A stretch of 64,000 nt of DNA from an uncultured Oscillospiraceae bacterium (GTDB taxonomy: Bacteria; Bacillota; Clostridia; Oscillospirales; Oscillospiraceae), in the NCBI GenBank assembly GCA_944385475.1, contig CALWXJ010000008.1, positions 17,217 to 81,216 on the forward strand, in the 5' to 3' direction. The translations under genes and the position numbers were made by a program. Position 1 is the stretch's first letter. Each line of letters begins with the position of its first letter. Positions 1-46,104 of the stretch are shown piece after piece. Below the pieces are notes generated by a model. It saw only the letters and a list, made by a program, of their open reading frames with translations, ran no database searches and had not been told where the DNA came from.

Positions 1-1662
1 CAGTATGAGCAGTATTTTGATGCTGAGGACGGCAACAGCCTGGTGCTGACCATTGACGCCGATGTGCAGCTGAGCCTGGAAAACGGCCTGGAGAGTATGC
101 TGGAAAAATATGACGCCGCCAACGGCGGCACCGGGATCGTTTTGGATGTGAATACCGGGGCCATTGTGGCCATGGCGTCTTACCCCAATTACGACCTCAA
201 CTCCTATGGCATGATCTATGATGACGGGCTGCAGGCCCAGGTGGATGAAAAGGCGGCGCAGATCCAGGCCAACCGCAGCAGCTATGCCACAGAGGAGGAC
301 TATGAGGCGGCCCTGTCCGCCGCCACCACCCAGGCGGTGCAGACCCAGTGGCGCAACAAGTGCATCGACTCCACGTACGAGCCGGGATCCACCTTTAAGC
401 CCATCACCCTGGCCATTGGCCTGGAAGAGGGCGTCATCGACATGAACAGCACCTTTTACTGCAGCGGCTCGGTGATGGTGCCTGGCTGGCCGTACGCCAT
501 CCACTGCTCCGACCGCAGCGGCCATGGCTCTCAAACGCTTTTGGAGGCGGTGGGAAATTCCTGCAACCCCGCCTTTGTGGATATCGGTCTGAAAATCGGC
601 ACGGAGACGTATTATGAATACCTCCAGTCCTTCGGGCTGATGGAAAAGACCGGAGTGGACATGATCGGCGAGGTGTCCGGCATCTTTGCTGACGAGGACT
701 CCTTCAATTCCGGCGTGGTGTCTCTTGCCACCTACTCCTTTGGCCAGACCTTCAACGTCACGCCCTTGGAACTGGTGCGCGCCCAGGCTGCGTGCATCAA
801 CGGCGGCTATCTCTATACCCCCTATGTGGTGGACCAGGTGCTGGACGAGGACGGCAACGTGATCTCCCAGCATGAGGCCACCGCAGTCCGCCAGGTGATC
901 AGCGAGGAGACCTCTGCCAAGGTGCGCCAGTGCCTGGAATACGTGGTGGCCTCCGGCACCGGCCGCAACGGCCAGGTGGTGGGCTACCGTATCGGCGGCA
1001 AGACCGGCACCGCGGAAAAGACCGGCACCAAAACCGACAGCAATCCCTTGGGGGATGTGGTGGTGTCCTTCATGTGCTTTGCCCCGGCGGACGATCCTCA
1101 GTATTTGATGCTGCTGACCATGGATACGCCCAGCCGCAGCACCGGCGTCTATGTTTCCGGCGGCAACATGGTGGCGCCGGTGGCCAGCCAGATCATGGCG
1201 GAGATTCTGCCCACCCTGGGCATTGAGCCGGACTATACCGCCGAGCAGTTGGTGGGAGCTGACGCCGCTGTTCCCTATGTGGTGGGTATGACGGCGGCAG
1301 AGGCCAAGGCGGAGCTGGAGAGCGCGGGATTTTCCTATCGCGTTGTGGGCAGTGGGGACACGGTTACAGACCAGACACCGGTGGGAGGCGCCATCGTGCC
1401 CAACAACGCCTCCATCATCTTGTATATGGGGGTGGAAAAACCGGACGCCCCGGTTACAGTGCCCAACGTAGTAGGCATGACAGCGGCGGAGGCCAATCGA
1501 ACATTGACCAACGCCGGGCTCATTATGAAAGTGGAGGGAGCCACCAATACCGGTACGGCCTCAGGGAATGTGGTGGCCATCGCTCAGGATCAGACAGTGG
1601 GAACCTCCCTTGCCGCGGGAAGTGTGGTAACGGTACGCTTTGGCACATCAACCATGGATTAG
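1..1662 (+). CDS. spoVD: Penicillin-binding protein with two PASTA domains, SpoVD/FtsI class (5' partial)
   Basis: Class B transpeptidase that cross-links peptidoglycan, in sporulation (SpoVD) or at the septum (FtsI/PbpB). The gene runs in from before base 1, so the membrane anchor and pedestal domain are missing. All three active-site motifs are visible: STFK at bases 388-399 (nucleophile Ser), SCN at 559-567 and KTGT from 1000. Two PASTA repeats follow, at about 1264-1437 and 1453-1650, each with a GMTAAEA core. Two C-terminal PASTA domains and a position directly before murE favour SpoVD, but SpoVD versus PbpB cannot be settled without the N-terminus. About 100 bp separate it from murE. 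Confidence 0.85.
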   Translation, partial: QYEQYFDAEDGNSLVLTIDADVQLSLENGLESMLEKYDAANGGTGIVLDVNTGAIVAMASYPNYDLNSYGMIYDDGLQAQVDEKAAQIQANRSSYATEEDYEAALSAATTQAVQTQWRNKCIDSTYEPGSTFKPITLAIGLEEGVIDMNSTFYCSGSVMVPGWPYAIHCSDRSGHGSQTLLEAVGNSCNPAFVDIGLKIGTETYYEYLQSFGLMEKTGVDMIGEVSGIFADEDSFNSGVVSLATYSFGQTFNVTPLELVRAQAACINGGYLYTPYVVDQVLDEDGNVISQHEATAVRQVISEETSAKVRQCLEYVVASGTGRNGQVVGYRIGGKTGTAEKTGTKTDSNPLGDVVVSFMCFAPADDPQYLMLLTMDTPSRSTGVYVSGGNMVAPVASQIMAEILPTLGIEPDYTAEQLVGADAAVPYVVGMTAAEAKAELESAGFSYRVVGSGDTVTDQTPVGGAIVPNNASIILYMGVEKPDAPVTVPNVVGMTAAEANRTLTNAGLIMKVEGATNTGTASGNVVAIAQDQTVGTSLAAGSVVTVRFGTSTMD

Positions 1663-38733: not shown

Positions 38734-39927
38734 TTATGCTTGCTCAGACAAGGCGGCCTTCAAAGCCTCGGTGCGGTCGGTGTCCTCCCAGCGCACCCCC
38801 AGATCCTCCCGGCCCATGTGGCCGTATGCGGACAGCTGGCGATAAATGGGCCGGCGCAGGTCCAGATCCCGGATAATGGCGGTGGGACGCAGGTCAAACA
38901 CCTTGCGCACAGCCTCCTCCAGCCGGTCATCCCCCACGGTGCCGGTGGAGAAGGTGTCTACGAAGATGCTGATGGGCTGGGCCACGCCGATGGCGTAAGA
39001 GAGCTGCACCTCACAGCGGCGGGCCAGACCGGCGGCCACGATGTTTTTTGCCACATACCGGGCGGCATAGGCGCCGCTGCGGTCCACCTTGGTGGGGTCC
39101 TTGCCGGAGAAGCATCCGCCGCCGTGGGGGGCGCTGCCGCCATAGGTATCCACGATGATCTTGCGCCCGGTGAGGCCGGAGTCCCCCTGGGGGCCGCCGA
39201 TGACGAAGCGGCCAGTGGGGTTGATGTAGATTTTGGTGTGCTGGTCCAGCAGCCCTGCGGGAATGGAGGGGTGGATCACAAGGTCGATCATGTCCTGACG
39301 GATCTGGTCCAGGGTCACCTCAGGGCTGTGCTGGGTGGAGAGGACCACGGTGTCCACCCGGACGGGGCGGTCATTTTCGTCATACTCCACAGTGACCTGG
39401 GTCTTGCCGTCGGGACGCAGGTAGTTTACCAGCCCCGCCTTGCGCACCAGGGCAAGGCGCTTGGCCATGCGATGGGCCAGGGAGATGGGCAGGGGCATCA
39501 GTTCCGGCGTCTCGTCACAGGCGTAGCCGAACATCATCCCCTGGTCCCCGGCGCCGTTTTGCAGCTCCGCGTCTTCATCGTTCCGGACCTCCAGCGCCCG
39601 GTCCACCCCCAGGGCGATGTCGCTGGACTGTTCGTCAATATTGGTGATAATGCCGCAGGTGTCGCAGTCAAAGCCGTACTTGGCGCGGTCATAACCGATC
39701 TCCCGGATCACCTCCCGGGTGATCTTGGGGATATCCGCATAGCCCTTGGTGGTGATCTCCCCCATGATGTGGATCAGACCCGTGGAGGCAGTGGTCTCGC
39801 AGGCCACGCGGCTCATGGGGTCCTGGGCCAGCAGGGCGTCCAAAATGGCATCGGAGATCTGGTCACAGATCTTGTCGGGGTGGCCTTCCGTCACCGATTC
39901 AGAAGTGAAAAAATAATGTCTTGCCAT
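38734..39927 (-). CDS. metK: S-adenosylmethionine synthetase
   Basis: Makes SAM from methionine and ATP in the cytosol as a tetramer. The 397 aa fit the family. Motifs are [12 protein letters not shown] near the N-terminus, the hexapeptide-like [16 protein letters not shown] (Cys where many have Ala) and DTGSCG-type metal ligands represented by DCDTCGI. The start at 39927 has AGGAG 8 bp upstream. It is controlled by a SAM-I riboswitch in its leader. Confidence 0.97.
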
Positions 39928-39974
39928 GGCAATGCTCCTTTTTGTCCCTCTCAGGCGAAGCTGCCTTCTCCGCA

Positions 39975-40007
39975 TAAAAAATACGCGTTTCGACGGACGA
40001 AACGCGC
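39975..40007 (-). terminator. Riboswitch-controlled terminator before metK
   Basis: On the minus strand CGCGTTTCG and CGAAACGCG pair around a short loop, followed by TATTTTTT. It lies 24 bp after the SAM-I aptamer and before the metK ribosome site, so SAM binding should stop transcription here. Confidence 0.88.
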
Positions 40008-40030
40008 AGGAAAATCAGCTCTTGCTCGCT

Positions 40031-40121
40031 CCTCATCTGCCGCTCTACGCCGGAATTGGCACCTTACAATGCAGGTTGCCGTGGGTTCATCGGGCCGTTC
40101 CCTCCGCCACTCTTGATAAGG
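40031..40121 (-). promoter_or_regulatory. SAM-I (S-box) riboswitch aptamer upstream of metK
   Basis: Minus-strand leader with the conserved SAM-I elements in order: CTTATCAAGAG, GGAGGGA, CCCGATGAA-like turn, CGGCAACC, AAGGTGCCAA and the closing GATGAGG. P1 pairs CCTTATC (40115-40121) with GATGAGG (40031-40037). High SAM is expected to lower metK expression through the terminator at 39975. Confidence 0.95.
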
Positions 40122-40145
40122 GACGTGATTGAATTTGTACCGTTT

Positions 40146-40689: not shown

Positions 40690-40721
40690 GAACCGCCGCC
40701 GGGACTCCGGCGGCGGTTTTT
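40690..40721. terminator. Terminator at the end of rimM-trmD
   Basis: AACCGCCGCCGG-GACT-CCGGCGGCGGTTTTT. It overlaps the trmD stop codon and can act in both directions. Confidence 0.85.
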
Positions 40722-41532
40722 AAGACAGCTCTGCCTGGGCCGCCCCGGGGGAGGGCTCTGCCTCCTGGGGCGCCTGCTGGGCGGCCAGCTCCGCCCGGGC
40801 TTCTGCCAGGATCCGGCGCTGGGCCTTGGTGGTGAGCTGGCTCTCGTCAAACTGGGCAAAGAGATCCGGGCGGCGGAGCATGGTGCGCTTATAGCTCTCT
40901 TTTTTGCGCCAGGCGGCCACTTTTGCGTGGTCACCGGAGAGCAGCACCTCCGGCACGGCCCGGTCATGCCATACTGCCGGGCGGGAATACTGGGGGTACT
41001 CCAAAAGGCCGTTCCAGTGGGATTCCTCCTCAAAGCACTCGGGGTCCGGCAGTACGCCGGGCACCATGCGGCACACGGCGTCCGCCACCGCCATGGCGGG
41101 GATCTCCCCTCCGGTGAGGACAAAGTCCCCCATGGAGATCTCCTCATCCACGCACGCGTCGATAAACCGCTGGTCGATCCCCTCATAGTGGCCGCACACC
41201 AGGATCAGATGGTCGTAGTTCTCTTTCAGCTCCCGGGCCACAGACTGGGTAAAGGTGCGCCCGCAGGGAGAGAGGAAGATGGTGCGGCCCGGTCCATAGG
41301 TGGACACCACATGCTCCCAGCAGCGATACAGGGGGTCCGCCTGCATCACGGCGCCTCGCCCGCCTCCGTAGGGGTAATCGTCCACCTGCATCTGCTTATT
41401 GGTGGTGTATGCCCGGATCTGGTGGCTGCGGATGGCGATATAGCCCCGCTGCTGGGCCCTGCCCAGGATACTCACTCCCATCATGGCGTCCACTGCCTCC
41501 GGGAAAAGGGTCATGATATCAATGTTCATCAT
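40720..41532 (-). CDS. trmD: tRNA (guanine37-N1)-methyltransferase
   Basis: Knotted SPOUT enzyme that methylates G37 of tRNAs with a G36, preventing frameshifts. About 270 aa. Conserved sequences are MNIDIMTLFPE, YPYGGGRGAVM, VCGHYEGIDQRF and the SAM-knot stretch DFVLTGGEIPAM. The last 23 residues (AAQQAPQEAEPSPGAAQAE) are a low-complexity extension. Start is 41532 or 41529 after GGAGGGG. It overlaps rimM by 14 bp. Confidence 0.96.
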   Translation of the reverse strand: MMNIDIMTLFPEAVDAMMGVSILGRAQQRGYIAIRSHQIRAYTTNKQMQVDDYPYGGGRGAVMQADPLYRCWEHVVSTYGPGRTIFLSPCGRTFTQSVARELKENYDHLILVCGHYEGIDQRFIDACVDEEISMGDFVLTGGEIPAMAVADAVCRMVPGVLPDPECFEEESHWNGLLEYPQYSRPAVWHDRAVPEVLLSGDHAKVAAWRKKESYKRTMLRRPDLFAQFDESQLTTKAQRRILAEARAELAAQQAPQEAEPSPGAAQAELS

Positions 41533-42025
41533 TGGCCATCCCCTCCAGAATCCGGACGTCCATGCACCCGGCGTCAAGATCCACCGACTGGATAAAAACC
41601 TCCGGCACAGCGGGGATGAGATAGGTCCGCTCCCCCCGGACGGTATACACCTTGTGGGCGGGATAGTCCTCTACCTTTACCACCTGCCCCAGGCACCTGC
41701 CGCTGCCGGCATCGTAGACGTCAAGCCCCATCAGCTCGTCATCAAAATACTGGCCCTGGGGAAGGGGGGCATCCTCCCGGCGGATGAAGAGCTCCCGTCC
41801 CTTATAGGAAAGGGCGGCGTTCATATCCTCCACCCCTGGAAATTTCATCAGGACCATGCTTTTGTGGACATGGTTGGCAGTGGGCTGCAGGGCTTGTCCG
41901 TCCATATAGAAGGTGGAGAACCGGGTCAAAAAGGCGGGGGCCACGTTCCTGGGCTGAACCCGGACCTCGCCCCGGATGCCGTGGGCATTTACCACCCGGC
42001 CCACGCAGATAAACTCCTGTTTCAT
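41519..42025 (-). CDS. rimM: Ribosome maturation factor RimM
   Basis: 168-aa factor for 30S head assembly that binds S19. N-terminal RimM barrel begins with VGRVVNAHGIRGEVRV, and a PRC-barrel follows at about 95-165 (GRELFIRREDA, then a final HTEIFIQSVD-like VPEVFIQSVDLD). AGGAGGGG lies upstream of the ATG. It is translationally coupled to trmD. rpsP and khpA, its usual upstream neighbours, lie 1.8 kb away behind an opposing gene. Confidence 0.94.
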   Translation of the reverse strand: MKQEFICVGRVVNAHGIRGEVRVQPRNVAPAFLTRFSTFYMDGQALQPTANHVHKSMVLMKFPGVEDMNAALSYKGRELFIRREDAPLPQGQYFDDELMGLDVYDAGSGRCLGQVVKVEDYPAHKVYTVRGERTYLIPAVPEVFIQSVDLDAGCMDVRILEGMANDEH

Positions 42026-42140
42026 AGGCTGTCCCCTCCTGGAGATTTTTTTGCTTTCAATCCTTTATTATAGCTCCGGCACTTCCAAAAGGCAATGAAA
42101 ACAACTTCCGAGAAAGGACAGGAGAAATTTTCCGGAGTTC

Positions 42141-42169
42141 TTGACAGCGGGGGAGGCATCTGGTATTGT
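42141..42169 (+). promoter_or_regulatory. Sigma-A promoter of the riboswitch-permease unit
   Basis: TTGACA at 42141 and TATTGT at 42164, spacer 17 bp, directly before the yybP-ykoY-type leader. Confidence 0.8.
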
Positions 42170-42173
42170 ATAG

Positions 42174-42294
42174 CGTAAAGAGGGAGTAGCTTGCGCCCCT
42201 GCAGGGCGTCGTGTGATTCGCCACCCCGGCCTTATGGCCCGGATCATATGCCAAGAAGCGAGACTTTTGCCCGGGCGGCAAAGGCCTCGCTTTT
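42174..42294 (+). promoter_or_regulatory. yybP-ykoY (Mn2+) riboswitch with overlapping terminator
   Basis: The leader contains the two signature segments of this class: AGGGAGTAGC at 42181-42190 and AAGCGAGACTTTTGCC from 42257. They lie on either side of a GC-rich multi-arm region. GTAAAG (42175-42180) pairs with CTTTTGC to close P1. The 3' segment GCGAGACTTTTGCC can instead pair with GGCAAAGGCCTCGC (42277-42290), followed by TTTT, forming a terminator. The two folds exclude each other, so ligand should turn the gene on. The class senses Mn2+ in Bacillus, Lactococcus and E. coli. Confidence 0.85.
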
Positions 42295-42402
42295 GTGCGC
42301 CTTGATCCAGGGCGCCGCGGTATTTGGGCCAAGTCACAAAACTTTGGAGGAAATGCCGGGCGCACGAATTTGCTGTGGCAAAAAAATAGGAGGAATTGAC
42401 CC

Positions 42403-43671
42403 ATGAAGACCCTTGCACTGATCGTATTCATCGCGGTGTACGCGCTGCTGCTGCTTTTGCCCAAATACCGGGCTGTGGTAGCCCTGGTCGCCGCGGCGCT
42501 GTTTGTGGCGGTGGGAATCGTGCCGTTTTCTGCCGTTGCCGCTGTGGTGGATTGGAACGTACTTTTGATGCTGGCAGGCACCATGGGCACTGTGGACCTT
42601 TTCATCCGCTCCAACATGCCCAACCGCCTTTCGGACTACTTAGTGCGGATGCTGCCCAATGTCAAATCGCTGATCATTGTGCTGGCGCTGTTTGCCGGCC
42701 TGGTTTCCGCATTTGTGGATAATGTGGCCACTGTGCTGATGTTGGCGCCGGTGGGTCTGGCGTTGGCACAGCGGCTGAATATTTCCCCTGTGGGACCCAT
42801 CTTGGCCATCGCGGTGTCCTCCAACCTCCAGGGCGCCGCCACGCTGGTGGGGGATACCACTTCCATTTTGCTGGGCGGCCACATGGGCCTGGATTTTATG
42901 GATTTCTTTATTTACGAGGGGGGCCCCAGCATGTTCTGGGTGGTGCAGGCCGGCGCCATCGCCACAGTACCGGTGATGCTCTTTTTGTTCCGCAAGGAAA
43001 AAGGAGAGCTTCACAGCACCCACCTCACGCCAGTAAGCGACTATCTGCCCACCTGTTTGCTGCTGGGCACGGTGGCCTCCTTGATCGCGGCCTCCTTTGT
43101 CCCCAATAAGCCCGCCGTCACCAACGGTGTTTTGTGCATGGCCTTTTTCCTGGTGGGTCTGGTGGCAGAGGTTGCCAGAGGCCATCACCGGGCTCTGGTG
43201 CGCCAGGTGGTGAAGAACATCGACTATGCCACGCTGCTGCTGCTGGCAGGACTGTTCGTGGTGATCGAGGGGATCGACCGGGCAGGGATCATTGCCGACA
43301 TCAGCGATATCATCGCCCATCTGGGGGGCGGGAACCTGTTTTTGACCTATACCATCATCGTGTGGTTTTCTGTGCTGGCCTCGGCCTTTATTGACAACAT
43401 CCCCTATACCGCCACCATGCTGCCGGTGGTGGGGGGCGTGGCTGCCTCTTTGGGCGTGGACCAGGCGGTGCTGTGCTTTGGCCTGCTTACAGGCGCTACC
43501 CTGGGAGGCAATTTGACGCCGGTGGGCGCTTCTGCCAATATCGCCGCCGGCGGCATCCTCCGCAAGGCCGGCTACGAAGTCACCACCGGCCAGTTTATGC
43601 GCATCGGCGTACCGTTTACCCTGACGGCCGTGACTGTGGGGTATATCTTGGTGTGGTTCTTCTATACCTGA
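42403..43671 (+). CDS. ArsB/NhaD (SLC13-type) permease under a Mn2+-type riboswitch
   Basis: 422-aa ion-transporter-superfamily permease with about 11 membrane helices. Two inverted repeats are suggested by FVDNVATVLMLAPV near residue 105 and FIDNIPYTATMLPVV near 330, and by ASNLQGAATLVGD-like and LGGNLTPVGASANI segments. Relatives move arsenite, Na+/H+ or dicarboxylates. Control by a yybP-ykoY leader suggests a role in metal export or homeostasis, which is inference. AGGAGG-type site before ATG. Confidence 0.88.
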   Translation: MKTLALIVFIAVYALLLLLPKYRAVVALVAAALFVAVGIVPFSAVAAVVDWNVLLMLAGTMGTVDLFIRSNMPNRLSDYLVRMLPNVKSLIIVLALFAGLVSAFVDNVATVLMLAPVGLALAQRLNISPVGPILAIAVSSNLQGAATLVGDTTSILLGGHMGLDFMDFFIYEGGPSMFWVVQAGAIATVPVMLFLFRKEKGELHSTHLTPVSDYLPTCLLLGTVASLIAASFVPNKPAVTNGVLCMAFFLVGLVAEVARGHHRALVRQVVKNIDYATLLLLAGLFVVIEGIDRAGIIADISDIIAHLGGGNLFLTYTIIVWFSVLASAFIDNIPYTATMLPVVGGVAASLGVDQAVLCFGLLTGATLGGNLTPVGASANIAAGGILRKAGYEVTTGQFMRIGVPFTLTAVTVGYILVWFFYT

Positions 43672-43685
43672 GAAAATGTGCCAAA

Positions 43686-43718
43686 GACCGGGAGCGGATA
43701 CCGCTCCCGGTCTTTTTA
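43686..43718 (+). terminator. Terminator of the permease gene
   Basis: GACCGGGAGCGG-ATA-CCGCTCCCGGTC followed by five T. Confidence 0.93.
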
Positions 43719-43740
43719 TAAAAATAATAGGAACATACAA

Positions 43741-43783
43741 AAAGACCGCCGGCATGGCTTTTGCCATGCCGGCGGAAAAGAAT
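43741..43783 (-). terminator. Terminator of the ylxM-ffh-rpsP-khpA operon
   Basis: On the minus strand CCGCCGGCATGGCA pairs with TGCCATGCCGGCGG, followed by TCTTTTTG. It ends the operon before rimM. Confidence 0.87.
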
Positions 43784-43811
43784 CTTCTGGCGGGGCGGGA
43801 TCCCCATCCAA

Positions 43812-44042
43812 TCAATCTACAATGTCGACGGAAACCTTAACGCCGGTGCGCTGGGCATAGGAGCGGATCACAGTTCGAATCTCCTTGGCGATGCGGCCCT
43901 GGCGGCCAATGACCTTGCCCATATCGTCGGGGGCGACGCGCAGTTCCAGCGTCAGCTCCTCTTCCCCAGGGATCTCTGTAACGGAGACAGCATCCGGGTC
44001 AGTGACAAGATTTCTGGCGATGTAGAGCAGCAAGTCTTTCAT
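43812..44042 (-). CDS. khpA: KH-domain RNA-binding protein KhpA (YlqC)
   Basis: 76 aa forming one KH domain with the GxxG loop GRQGRIAKEIR near residues 48-58. KhpA forms a dimer with KhpB and binds many RNAs, influencing division and cell size in Gram-positives. It starts 15 bp after rpsP, the usual order. Confidence 0.93.
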   Translation of the reverse strand: MKDLLLYIARNLVTDPDAVSVTEIPGEEELTLELRVAPDDMGKVIGRQGRIAKEIRTVIRSYAQRTGVKVSVDIVD

Positions 44043-44057
44043 ATGCTGCCCTCCGGA

Positions 44058-44297
44058 TCAGAGGACTTCGACTTTTTTCAGAAGTGCTCTGACGGTGTCG
44101 GTGGGCTGAGCGCCGGACTTGATCCAGTTTTGAGCGCGCTCTGTGTCGATCTTGATCTCAGCGGGGGAGACACAGGGGTTGTAAGTGCCGATTTCCTCAA
44201 TGAAGCGGCCGTCCCGGGGGAAGCGGGAATCCGCCACCACCACGCGGTAGAAAGGAGCCTTCTTCGCGCCCATCCGGCGCAGTCTGATCTTTACCAT
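44058..44297 (-). CDS. rpsP: 30S ribosomal protein S16
   Basis: 79-aa S16 with the canonical opening [25 protein letters not shown] (first 20 residues suffice for recognition) and the later [18 protein letters not shown]. Needed for 30S assembly. It sits between ffh and khpA, as in other Firmicutes, with a normal ribosome site (AGGTAAC) upstream. Confidence 0.97.
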
Positions 44298-44375
44298 AAT
44301 TTTGTTACCTCCAGAATTTTGTATAAGTTGAGTTCTATCTATAAATGCTTTGCACTTATATCCTATTAAAAGGGG

Positions 44376-45734
44376 TCAACGCCGCCGCTTCTTGCGGCCA
44401 AAGCCCCCCAGGCGGCCCCCCAGGCCGCCAAAGCCCCGGCCGCCGCGGCTCATCTGCTTGAACATCTGCTGCATGGCCTCAAACTGTTTGAGCAGACGGT
44501 TGACATCCACTACGCCAAGGCCGCAGCCGGCGGCGATCCGGCGTTTGCGGCTGGCCCCCAGGATCTGGGGGTTCTCCCGCTCCAGAGGGGTCATGGATAA
44601 GATGATGGCCTCTGTATGGGACAGGACCTTTTCGTCGATAGAGGTCCCCTGGAGCTGCTTGCCCAGCTGGCTGGGCATCATCCCCGCCAGTTGGCTCAAG
44701 TCCCCCATGCCCCGCAGCTGCTGAAGCTGATCGTAATAATCCTGCAGGGTAAAGCGATTTTTTCGCAGCTTCTCCTCCATTTTGGCGGCCTGCTTCTCGT
44801 CGTACGCCGCCTCGGCCTTTTCAATGAAGGAGAGCATATCTCCCATGCCCAGGATCCGGGATGCCATCCGGTCCGGGTGGAAGGGCTCGATCATATCCAG
44901 CTTTTCCCCGGTGCCCACGAATTTAATGGGCTTGCCGGTGGCTGCCCGGATGGAAAGGGCTGCGCCGCCCCGGGCGTCGCCGTCCAGTTTGGTAAGGATC
45001 ACTCCGTCGATCCCCAGGGAATCGTCAAACGCAGAGGCGGCGTTCACCGCGTCCTGGCCAGTCATGGCGTCCACCACCAGCAAGATCTCGTGAGGATGGA
45101 CGGCTTCCTTCATCCGCTTGAGCTCGTCCATCAGCGCCTCGTCCACATGGAGGCGGCCGGCGGTATCCAAGAACACCATATCGTTGCCGTAATCCCGGGC
45201 ATGGCGGATGGCGTTACGGGCGATCTCCACGGGGTCACCTTGTCCCTCCTCAAAAACCGGCAGGTCCAACTGCCCGCCCACCACTTTCAGCTGCTCGATG
45301 GCGGCGGGGCGGTAGACGTCACAGGCGGCCAGCAGGGGCCGCTTTTGCATCTGGCGGCGCAAAAGCCCTGCCAGCTTGGCAGTGGTGGTGGTTTTGCCGG
45401 CGCCCTGCAGACCCACCATCATCACAACGGTGGGACCGCTGCTGGCCATGGAGATCTTGGCATTGGCACCGCCCATAAGGGCTGTCAGCTCTTCATTGAC
45501 GATCTTGATGACCTGCTGGGCGGGGGTGAGGCTGTCCAGCACGTCTGAGCCGATGGCCCGCTCCGTGACTTTGGCCACAAAGTCCTTGACCACCTTGTAG
45601 CCCACGTCTGCTTCCAGGAGGGCCAGGCGCACTTCCCGCATGGCCTCCCGCACGTCATTTTCCGACAGGCGGCCCTTGCCCCGCAGACGCTTAAATGTGG
45701 CGCTTAGCTTTTCACTCAGTCCTTCAAATGCCAT
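44376..45734 (-). CDS. ffh: Signal recognition particle GTPase Ffh
   Basis: SRP54 homologue of 452 aa that targets nascent membrane proteins. N domain at about 1-85, G domain with GLQGAGKTTT near residue 107, DTAGR near 190 and TKLDG near 245, and a methionine-rich M domain from about 300 to the end. The tail is glycine and basic-rich (GRLGGFGRKKRRR). It begins 4 bp after ylxM, so the two are coupled. Confidence 0.97.
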   Translation of the reverse strand: MAFEGLSEKLSATFKRLRGKGRLSENDVREAMREVRLALLEADVGYKVVKDFVAKVTERAIGSDVLDSLTPAQQVIKIVNEELTALMGGANAKISMASSGPTVVMMVGLQGAGKTTTTAKLAGLLRRQMQKRPLLAACDVYRPAAIEQLKVVGGQLDLPVFEEGQGDPVEIARNAIRHARDYGNDMVFLDTAGRLHVDEALMDELKRMKEAVHPHEILLVVDAMTGQDAVNAASAFDDSLGIDGVILTKLDGDARGGAALSIRAATGKPIKFVGTGEKLDMIEPFHPDRMASRILGMGDMLSFIEKAEAAYDEKQAAKMEEKLRKNRFTLQDYYDQLQQLRGMGDLSQLAGMMPSQLGKQLQGTSIDEKVLSHTEAIILSMTPLERENPQILGASRKRRIAAGCGLGVVDVNRLLKQFEAMQQMFKQMSRGGRGFGGLGGRLGGFGRKKRRR

Positions 45735-45738
45735 GGTC

Positions 45739-46104
45739 TCATTCCTTTAGCACGGCCAGTTCGCCGCAGATGGTGTCAGTCAATTCGCTCAGGCGGGCAT
45801 CCTCATACTGGCGGTAATTCAGTGTGCGGATCTCGGCCACAGCGGCTTCAATGGCGTCTAAATGGGGACGCTGGGCCTCAAAGCGCTTGATGATGCCGGT
45901 CTTGTCCTCCACTTCCTGCATGGCGGCCTCCGCCCGGACGATCACATCCCGCACGCCCTGGCGGGAGATGCCTGCGTTTTCCGCAATCTCCGAAAGAGAG
46001 AGGTCCTCATTGTAATAGAGGTCAAAAAATTCCCGCTGGCGGGGGGTCAGCAGTTCTGCGTAAAAATCAAAGAGCATGGTCATGCGATACGTTTGGTTTT
46101 TCAC
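45739..46104 (-). CDS. ylxM: YlxM family SRP-associated HTH protein
   Basis: 121-aa helix-turn-helix protein. The core LTPRQREFFDLYYNEDLSLSEIAE and SRQGVRDVIVRAE is a sigma-region-4-like HTH. YlxM stimulates SRP function in Streptococcus and is almost always encoded before ffh. First gene of the operon with ffh, rpsP and khpA; a good promoter lies upstream. Confidence 0.92.
   Translation of the reverse strand: MKNQTYRMTMLFDFYAELLTPRQREFFDLYYNEDLSLSEIAENAGISRQGVRDVIVRAEAAMQEVEDKTGIIKRFEAQRPHLDAIEAAVAEIRTLNYRQYEDARLSELTDTICGELAVLKE

Follow-up and report, generated by a model that had tools for sequence, protein, structure and literature searches.

The leaders of Bacillus subtilis ykoY and Streptococcus mgtA respond to Mn2+, and Escherichia coli carries two leaders of the same kind in front of mntP and alx. 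In the structural work on this RNA class, the Mn2+-sensing adenosine lies in loop L3, as A48 in Xanthomonas oryzae (ACA48UACU) and as A41 in Lactococcus lactis (UCA41AUUC) (PMC6754395). For the L. lactis RNA, antitermination on metal binding is reported in a further study (PMC9190785). The genes placed under these switches can carry names that suggest other substrates; in Bordetella pertussis, a Ca2+:cation antiporter controlled by a yybP-ykoY switch was shown to export Mn (PMC8546581). In the window, which is the whole 64,000-nucleotide stretch analysed here, a leader of this kind stands before a carrier of yet another protein family, in a unit composed of the following elements:

42141-43718, forward strand: riboswitch-permease unit, with promoter, 99-nt structured leader, terminator and a single 422-codon gene
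42141-42169, forward strand: promoter of sigma-70 type, TTGACA-17-TATTGT, with TG before the -10 element
42173-42271, forward strand: predicted aptamer of the Mn2+-riboswitch class, alx/L. lactis L3 type, 67.1 bits with covariance model R1 (the window being among R1's 30 sequences)
42178-42182 with 42264-42268, forward strand: P1.1 switch helix, 5 pairs in the window
42182-42189, forward strand: 5' strand of L1, GGGAGTAG, with its 3' partner strand GCGAGAC at 42258-42264
42189-42191 with 42257-42259, forward strand: P1.2, from covariation and fold
42193-42209, forward strand: P2 hairpin, 6 of 6 pairs changed on both sides among 30 leaders
42211-42249, forward strand: P3.1 (42211-42220 with 42240-42249), loop L3 (42221-42227) and P3.2, from the fold
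42223, forward strand: adenosine equivalent, by alignment, to the Mn2+-sensing A41 of L. lactis and A48 of X. oryzae
42254-42294, forward strand: intrinsic terminator, with the 3' strands of both P1.1 and L1 in its 5' arm
42388-42393, forward strand: ribosome binding site AGGAGG, by eye
42403-43671, forward strand: ArsB/DASS-fold permease, 422 aa (PF03600, 6e-56; pLDDT 88; ArsB 10tp, TM 0.84)
43683-43718, forward strand: terminator hairpin 3' of the permease gene, by eye

The class of this leader is established by comparison rather than by the public model of the yybP-ykoY family. The sequence-only reading had held that a poor score against RF00080 would speak against its assignment, and in name this is what was found: RF00080 gives no match in the window at E<=10 or in the host's own genome at E<=0.001, and positions 42100-42410, compared with 4227 Rfam families at E<=10, give a single chance match to a snoRNA and no metal or alkali switch. 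The assignment to yybP-ykoY holds nevertheless, through R1, a covariance model built from 30 leaders of the ArsB-like permease and no others: in 5.7 kb of E. coli K-12, R1 detects the mntP leader (29.7 bits, 3e-7) as well as the alx leader (25.4 bits, 5e-6). With RF00080 itself, the mntP leader reaches 41.6 bits where 45 would be needed, and alx goes unreported at E<=1; the RF00080 score thus does not delimit the class, and since R1 finds both RNAs on which RF00080 is weak, the low RF00080 score of the window reflects the model and not the RNA. Across the host's order, none of 295 genomes has an RF00080 match above the cut-off and 19 have one at E<=0.01, compared with 144 that have an R1 match at E<=0.001, so that the public model misses many likely members there; across the phylum, R1 matches are present in 170 of 398 genomes. 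When R1 is applied to the loci brought in by RF00080, 17 of 19 give a match (26-57 bits), the exceptions being L126 and L132; in 16 the match coincides with the RF00080 position, and in L129 it falls at another place in the locus. The leader shows homology by covariance model, both L1 strands, the L3 sensing adenosine and the P1.1, P1.2, P2 and P3 helices, with a score under the RF00080 gathering cut-off. By this homology the leader is a new member of the known Mn2+ riboswitch class.

In terms of anatomy, the leader shares with the Mn2+ riboswitches of E. coli alx and L. lactis yoaB the L1 element GGGAGUAG, the conserved L3 adenosine, a P1.1 helix in common with the terminator and a predicted ON logic; it differs from them in being unreported by RF00080, in its absent or reduced P4 and in the ArsB/DASS-fold permease behind it. 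The Na+-I riboswitch (RF03071) is another RNA, with no match in the window's leader at E<=10 and none in the host's own genome. A further Rfam family, RF02617 (SSRC10), matches the leader of one relative (L025, 1365-1486) at 32.3 bits against a cut-off of 56 (E 0.035). Its consensus shows CCGUCaaUACGG and CgaGaC, and it probably belongs to the same riboswitch class as the leader, although it is curated as a Streptococcus sRNA and is not reported in the window; SSRC10 precedes a gene annotated as a putative calcium transporter (PMC3675131).

The secondary structure is carried by covariation among relatives. A1 is an alignment of 30 permease leaders made with no structure as a guide. Of its 28 pairs, 21 show changes in both partners; 85% of cells can pair, a share that drops to 33-48% once the partners are shifted by 1-3 columns, a comparison in which the shifted versions are partly disfavoured by construction. 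Pairing reaches 95-97% in helices P1.1, P1.2 and P2 and 67% in the poorly aligned P3.1. GGGAGTAG is invariant in 30 of 30 leaders, the loci having been chosen by GGGAGTAG itself, and all 258 leaders of an R1-guided alignment, a procedure that favours agreement, retain the C-A of the Mn2+-sensing adenosine site. The P4 arm ranges by eye from none to a hairpin among the relatives, with little or nothing in the window. The window's own RNA is a less typical representative: two outer consensus pairs of P1.1 are broken, and 42173-42271 folded alone prefers another structure (-34.3 kcal/mol) over the consensus aptamer (-29.9 kcal/mol). Its L3, CGCCACCCC, deviates from the CGUCANNAC pattern at several positions and reads as a diverged version of the L. 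lactis-like motif. The aptamer proposed for the window is supported by comparison with relatives rather than by its own fold.

The elements around the aptamer are those of a transcriptional switch. The clean promoter claimed by the sequence-only reading is borne out by the TTGACA-17-TATTGT site with its upstream TG; over the two strands of the 451-base stretch, 2 promoter-like sites occur where shuffles lead one to expect 0.4. The terminator hairpin at 42254-42294 is strong (-24.0 kcal/mol, with a folding z of -2.39 for the whole stretch), and its U-run is short, four long (UUUU). The 3' strand common to aptamer and terminator lies at 42258-42271, just where it had been placed before. As the P1.1 3' strand falls within the 5' arm of the terminator, antitermination is predicted on metal binding, and the ON logic proposed earlier agrees with this reuse of the strand, its direction in the cell being deduced from the arrangement. 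The same architecture is general among 197 leaders assembled from the order-wide matches listed, the homologue-driven loci and the RF00080-driven loci: a hairpin reusing the P1.1 3' strand and followed by T's is present in 157 of them, compared with 3 of 197 with shuffled downstream bases, and in the permease leaders a terminator reuses this strand in 39 of 45. In the absence of metal, the nascent RNA would fold the hairpin 42254-42294 and transcription would stop; Mn2+ would dock L1 onto L3 via adenosine 42223 and thereby hold P1.1, which would block the hairpin and allow the permease to be made.

The permease belongs, as had been read from the sequence, to the ArsB-type carriers of the ion-transporter superfamily. 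Its reading frame is intact, its Pfam matches are CitMHS (PF03600, 6e-56), DctM and ArsB, and its AlphaFold model (pLDDT 88) is predicted to adopt the ArsB/DASS fold. The best fold match in the PDB is the ArsB arsenite carrier 10tp (TM 0.84), which is alike over the full length; the permease differs from it in sequence (18% identity), in scores below the NCBIfam ArsB cut-offs (50.4 of 457, 44.2 of 760 and 41.3 of 415 bits) and in the metal-class RNA in front. It is also under the NCBIfam DASS cut-offs, and no NhaD model is among its matches in general Pfam and NCBIfam searches. The host's own genome, in an assembly about 86% complete, has a single R1 match, that of the window, and neither an Na_Ca_ex nor an OadB match; it has one MntP gene, in whose 3.5-kb locus no leader motif is seen by pattern.

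A survey of how often such a leader precedes related permeases had been proposed, and the association recurs. Among 81 permeases, from 80 homologue loci in named genome records and from the window, a leader precedes 31 of the 79 with readable upstreams, and 48 of the 79 have none, 2 having too little upstream. On a tree of these 81, the presence and absence of the leader need 16 changes, at least 12 of them on well-supported branches. A further sample of 29 permease loci from the host's bacterial family, some of which may be the same organisms, has a leader in 8 (R1, both strands, E<1e-6), with weaker cases in L105 and L091 left uncounted. In total, 45 distinct leaders, the window's included, precede members of the permease family, and the permease lies on the same strand behind all 45. 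At Rfam gathering cut-offs, 40 homologue loci (L060 and all but 9 of the 48 leaderless ones) give tRNAs and one c-di-GMP switch on the other strand, and no alkali-metal or Mn2+ switch; by eye, the upstreams of 15 loci (14 leaderless ones and L046, which has a leader) hold no hidden leader. Compared directly with 200 genomes of the family, the leader DNA gives 2 short non-self matches, neither with an Rfam switch: one (L003) was rejected as lying inside a reading frame and the other (L004) was judged by eye to be due to chance. In Proteiniclasticum ruminis (L046), two near-identical leaders stand in tandem (1311-1424 and 2878-2991), each before a copy of the permease.

The leaders fall into two types by the first five letters of L3 in the covariance-model alignment, CAACA on the one hand and CGUCA or close forms on the other; the window's L3 is of the second type. 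The genes behind them were counted in an order-wide census of 144 leaders (143 loci) among the matches listed, the window's own being left out and six further order-wide places being counted with the RF00080-survey loci: P-type ATPase 39, OadB 38, Na_Ca_ex 22, MntP 21, permease 8, SPFH/flotillin 6, NaPi 3 and other or unassigned 7. One member each of OadB, Na_Ca_ex, P-type ATPase, MntP, NaPi and SPFH was checked with Pfam. Among the matches listed, the 197 leaders divide sharply by gene: MntP has CAACA in 29 of 29, the permease has another sequence in 45 of 45 (CGUCA in 42), OadB has the second type in 37 of 39 and Na_Ca_ex in 21 of 24, the 2 and 3 exceptions being CAACA, and the P-type ATPases are split (CAACA 22, other 22). 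The six SPFH/flotillin leaders (L205, L239, L250, L220, L222, L253) are of CGUCA type. Outside the order, a sample of 61 leaders at 60 loci, chosen among the matches listed and leaning to high scores, has GDT1 under the CAACA type (7 of 7) and, under the second type, TerC (15 of 15), OadB (5 of 5), the permease (1 of 1), Na_Ca_ex (9 of 10) and P-type ATPase (12 of 14). The other 9 leaders belong to the second type and have no classified gene behind them. Two TerC and two GDT1 members were checked with Pfam there. In one of these loci (L312), a CGACA-type leader before TerC and a CAACA-type leader before GDT1 lie in a row (1701-1800 and 542-635, both on the reverse strand). Escherichia coli follows the same rule, its mntP leader reading CAACA and its alx leader CGUCA in the alignments; its record names alx an Mn2+ exporter, and alx belongs to the TerC gene family.

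Fisher tests of type against gene give 2e-19 for the order and 6e-7 for the phylum sample, both ignoring kinship, and comparison within genomes is the better support for the division. Both types occur in 21 of the 127 genomes with a typed leader among the matches listed; 15 of these 21 have MntP, with CAACA in 15 of 15. Three genomes (G231, G266, G415) hold OadB and Na_Ca_ex together, with one leader of each type. Under the second type, no two of the permease, OadB and Na_Ca_ex occur in one genome among the matches listed (9, 37 and 21 genomes, with kinship uncontrolled). This division of the regulon in the order, the phylum sample and E. coli raises the question as to whether one class comprises two tuned or differently specific sensors. 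A far-reaching answer is that the yybP-ykoY class consists of two sensors differing in affinity, kinetics or ligand, CAACA serving MntP and GDT1, and CGUCA serving TerC, Na_Ca_ex, OadB, the permease and SPFH/flotillin, and that the ArsB-type permease forms an unrecognised riboswitch-controlled family of Mn2+ (or Mn2+/Ca2+) exporters that replaces the OadB and Na_Ca_ex carriers in some genomes; taken jointly, these claims are speculative and rather unlikely all to be right.

As the second L3 type is common to RNAs known for Mn2+, the simplest reading is that of an Mn2+ ON switch in front of an Mn2+-lowering carrier, and we regard it as probable that the leader acts in this way on a permease that exports Mn2+. 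Mn2+ as the ligand, proposed from the start, is supported by homology. As an ArsB/DASS-fold carrier, the permease would most likely rid the cell of surplus Mn2+, with H+ or Na+ as the probable counter-ion. The B. pertussis antiporter BP3410 offers a parallel, being a carrier of another nominal substrate under the same RNA class (PMC8546581), although it belongs to a different protein family. Several observations weigh against this reading: many carriers of the second-type regulon have names that refer to Na+ or Ca2+ (OadB, Na_Ca_ex, Na_Pi_cotrans) and do not obviously point to Mn2+; RF00080 is silent, the window's own fold differs, its L3 is divergent and its U-run is four long; and there are the 48 leaderless homologues among 79 and the host's MntP with no leader motif seen. 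It is possible, if doubtful, that the leader senses Mn2+ while the permease moves something else, as an Na+/H+ or anion carrier that aids the cell under metal stress. The fold family includes Na+-coupled anion carriers along with ArsB, the scores under the NCBIfam ArsB and DASS cut-offs leave room for other substrates, and 48 of 79 homologues are leaderless. Against this, no two of the second-type permease, OadB and Na_Ca_ex share a genome among the matches listed, as would be expected of stand-ins for one function, a pattern that may be due in part to kinship and that is qualified by the three genomes with OadB and Na_Ca_ex under one leader of each type. That there is no riboswitch at all, and that a chance stem lies beside a constitutive terminator, would agree with the lone chance hit of Rfam in the window's leader and with its deviating minimum-energy fold; for the leader family this is already contradicted by covariation, by recurrence before 45 permease genes and by the cross-detection of the E. 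coli Mn2+ leaders, and for the window it is scarcely credible.

A change of ligand deserves separate weighing. The CGUCA-type leader of these Clostridia could report Na+ or an Na+/Ca2+ imbalance, the permease, OadB, the exchangers and the Na/Pi carriers being answers to sodium. Its regulon in the order has this flavour, with many genes for OadB, Na_Ca_ex and the ArsB/DASS carrier among the matches listed, and oxaloacetate decarboxylase genes (PMC9337991) as well as nhaD and oadG (PMC9646797) are also found behind the validated Na+-I switch. Of nine Na+-I matches in the order, one (L294, in the host's family) precedes an Na_Ca_ex that shares 39% identity with a homologue behind a CGUCA-type leader, and a review expects yybP variants with other divalent ligands (PMC7266159). 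The idea that OadB is a lone gene was rejected, a small frame resembling the OAD_gamma chain lying 2-19 bases behind it in 3 of 6 loci, as a working Na+ pump might have; these one-helix frames (L278, L279, L283) score E 0.48-0.91, under the Pfam cut-off, and OadB may yet belong to a sodium pump. These frames raise the sodium explanation slightly and lower slightly both Mn2+ export and the two-sensor proposal. On the other side, inspection by eye of six OadB loci shows no catalytic decarboxylase subunit in any of them, the L3 type matches UCA41AUUC of the Mn2+-bound L. lactis structure (PMC6754395) and the sensing adenosine is invariant in the 258 leaders of the guided alignment. TerC (15 of 15 among the matches listed) and E. 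coli alx also have leaders with this L3 type, which lowers the case for an altered ligand, and we consider a sodium-reporting leader improbable. Beside one leader-controlled OadB (L283), a shortened permease-like frame (202-783, reverse strand) looks like a decayed copy of the permease.

An ArsB-type Mn2+ carrier would be new, and the leader-permease pair would be a recurrent and testable candidate for a new family of Mn2+ exporters in mostly uncultured Clostridia. In the literature searched, no paper was found that joins a manganese riboswitch with SLC13, and the gene lists of Price 2015, Martin 2019, Dambach 2015 and Bachas 2018 may have the pairing. In that search, yybP-ykoY and oxaloacetate decarboxylase occur together only in the paper on the Na+ switch, in which the name appears within a reference (PMC9337991), and yybP-ykoY and arsB only in a review of Bacillus, where the sentence deals with general Mn regulation.

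In terms of genomic context, the permease gene on the forward strand is flanked by genes of the reverse strand that resemble rimM/trmD and rpsP/ffh (named by eye), and the unit sits on the opposite strand within an apparent ylxM-ffh-rpsP-KH / rimM-trmD cluster (40720-46104 of the window). In one relative (L006), rimM-like sequence is seen by eye upstream as well. A second riboswitch of the window, a SAM riboswitch (RF00162, 75.6 bits), lies at 40030-40122 on the reverse strand, before a metK-like gene at 38734-39975.
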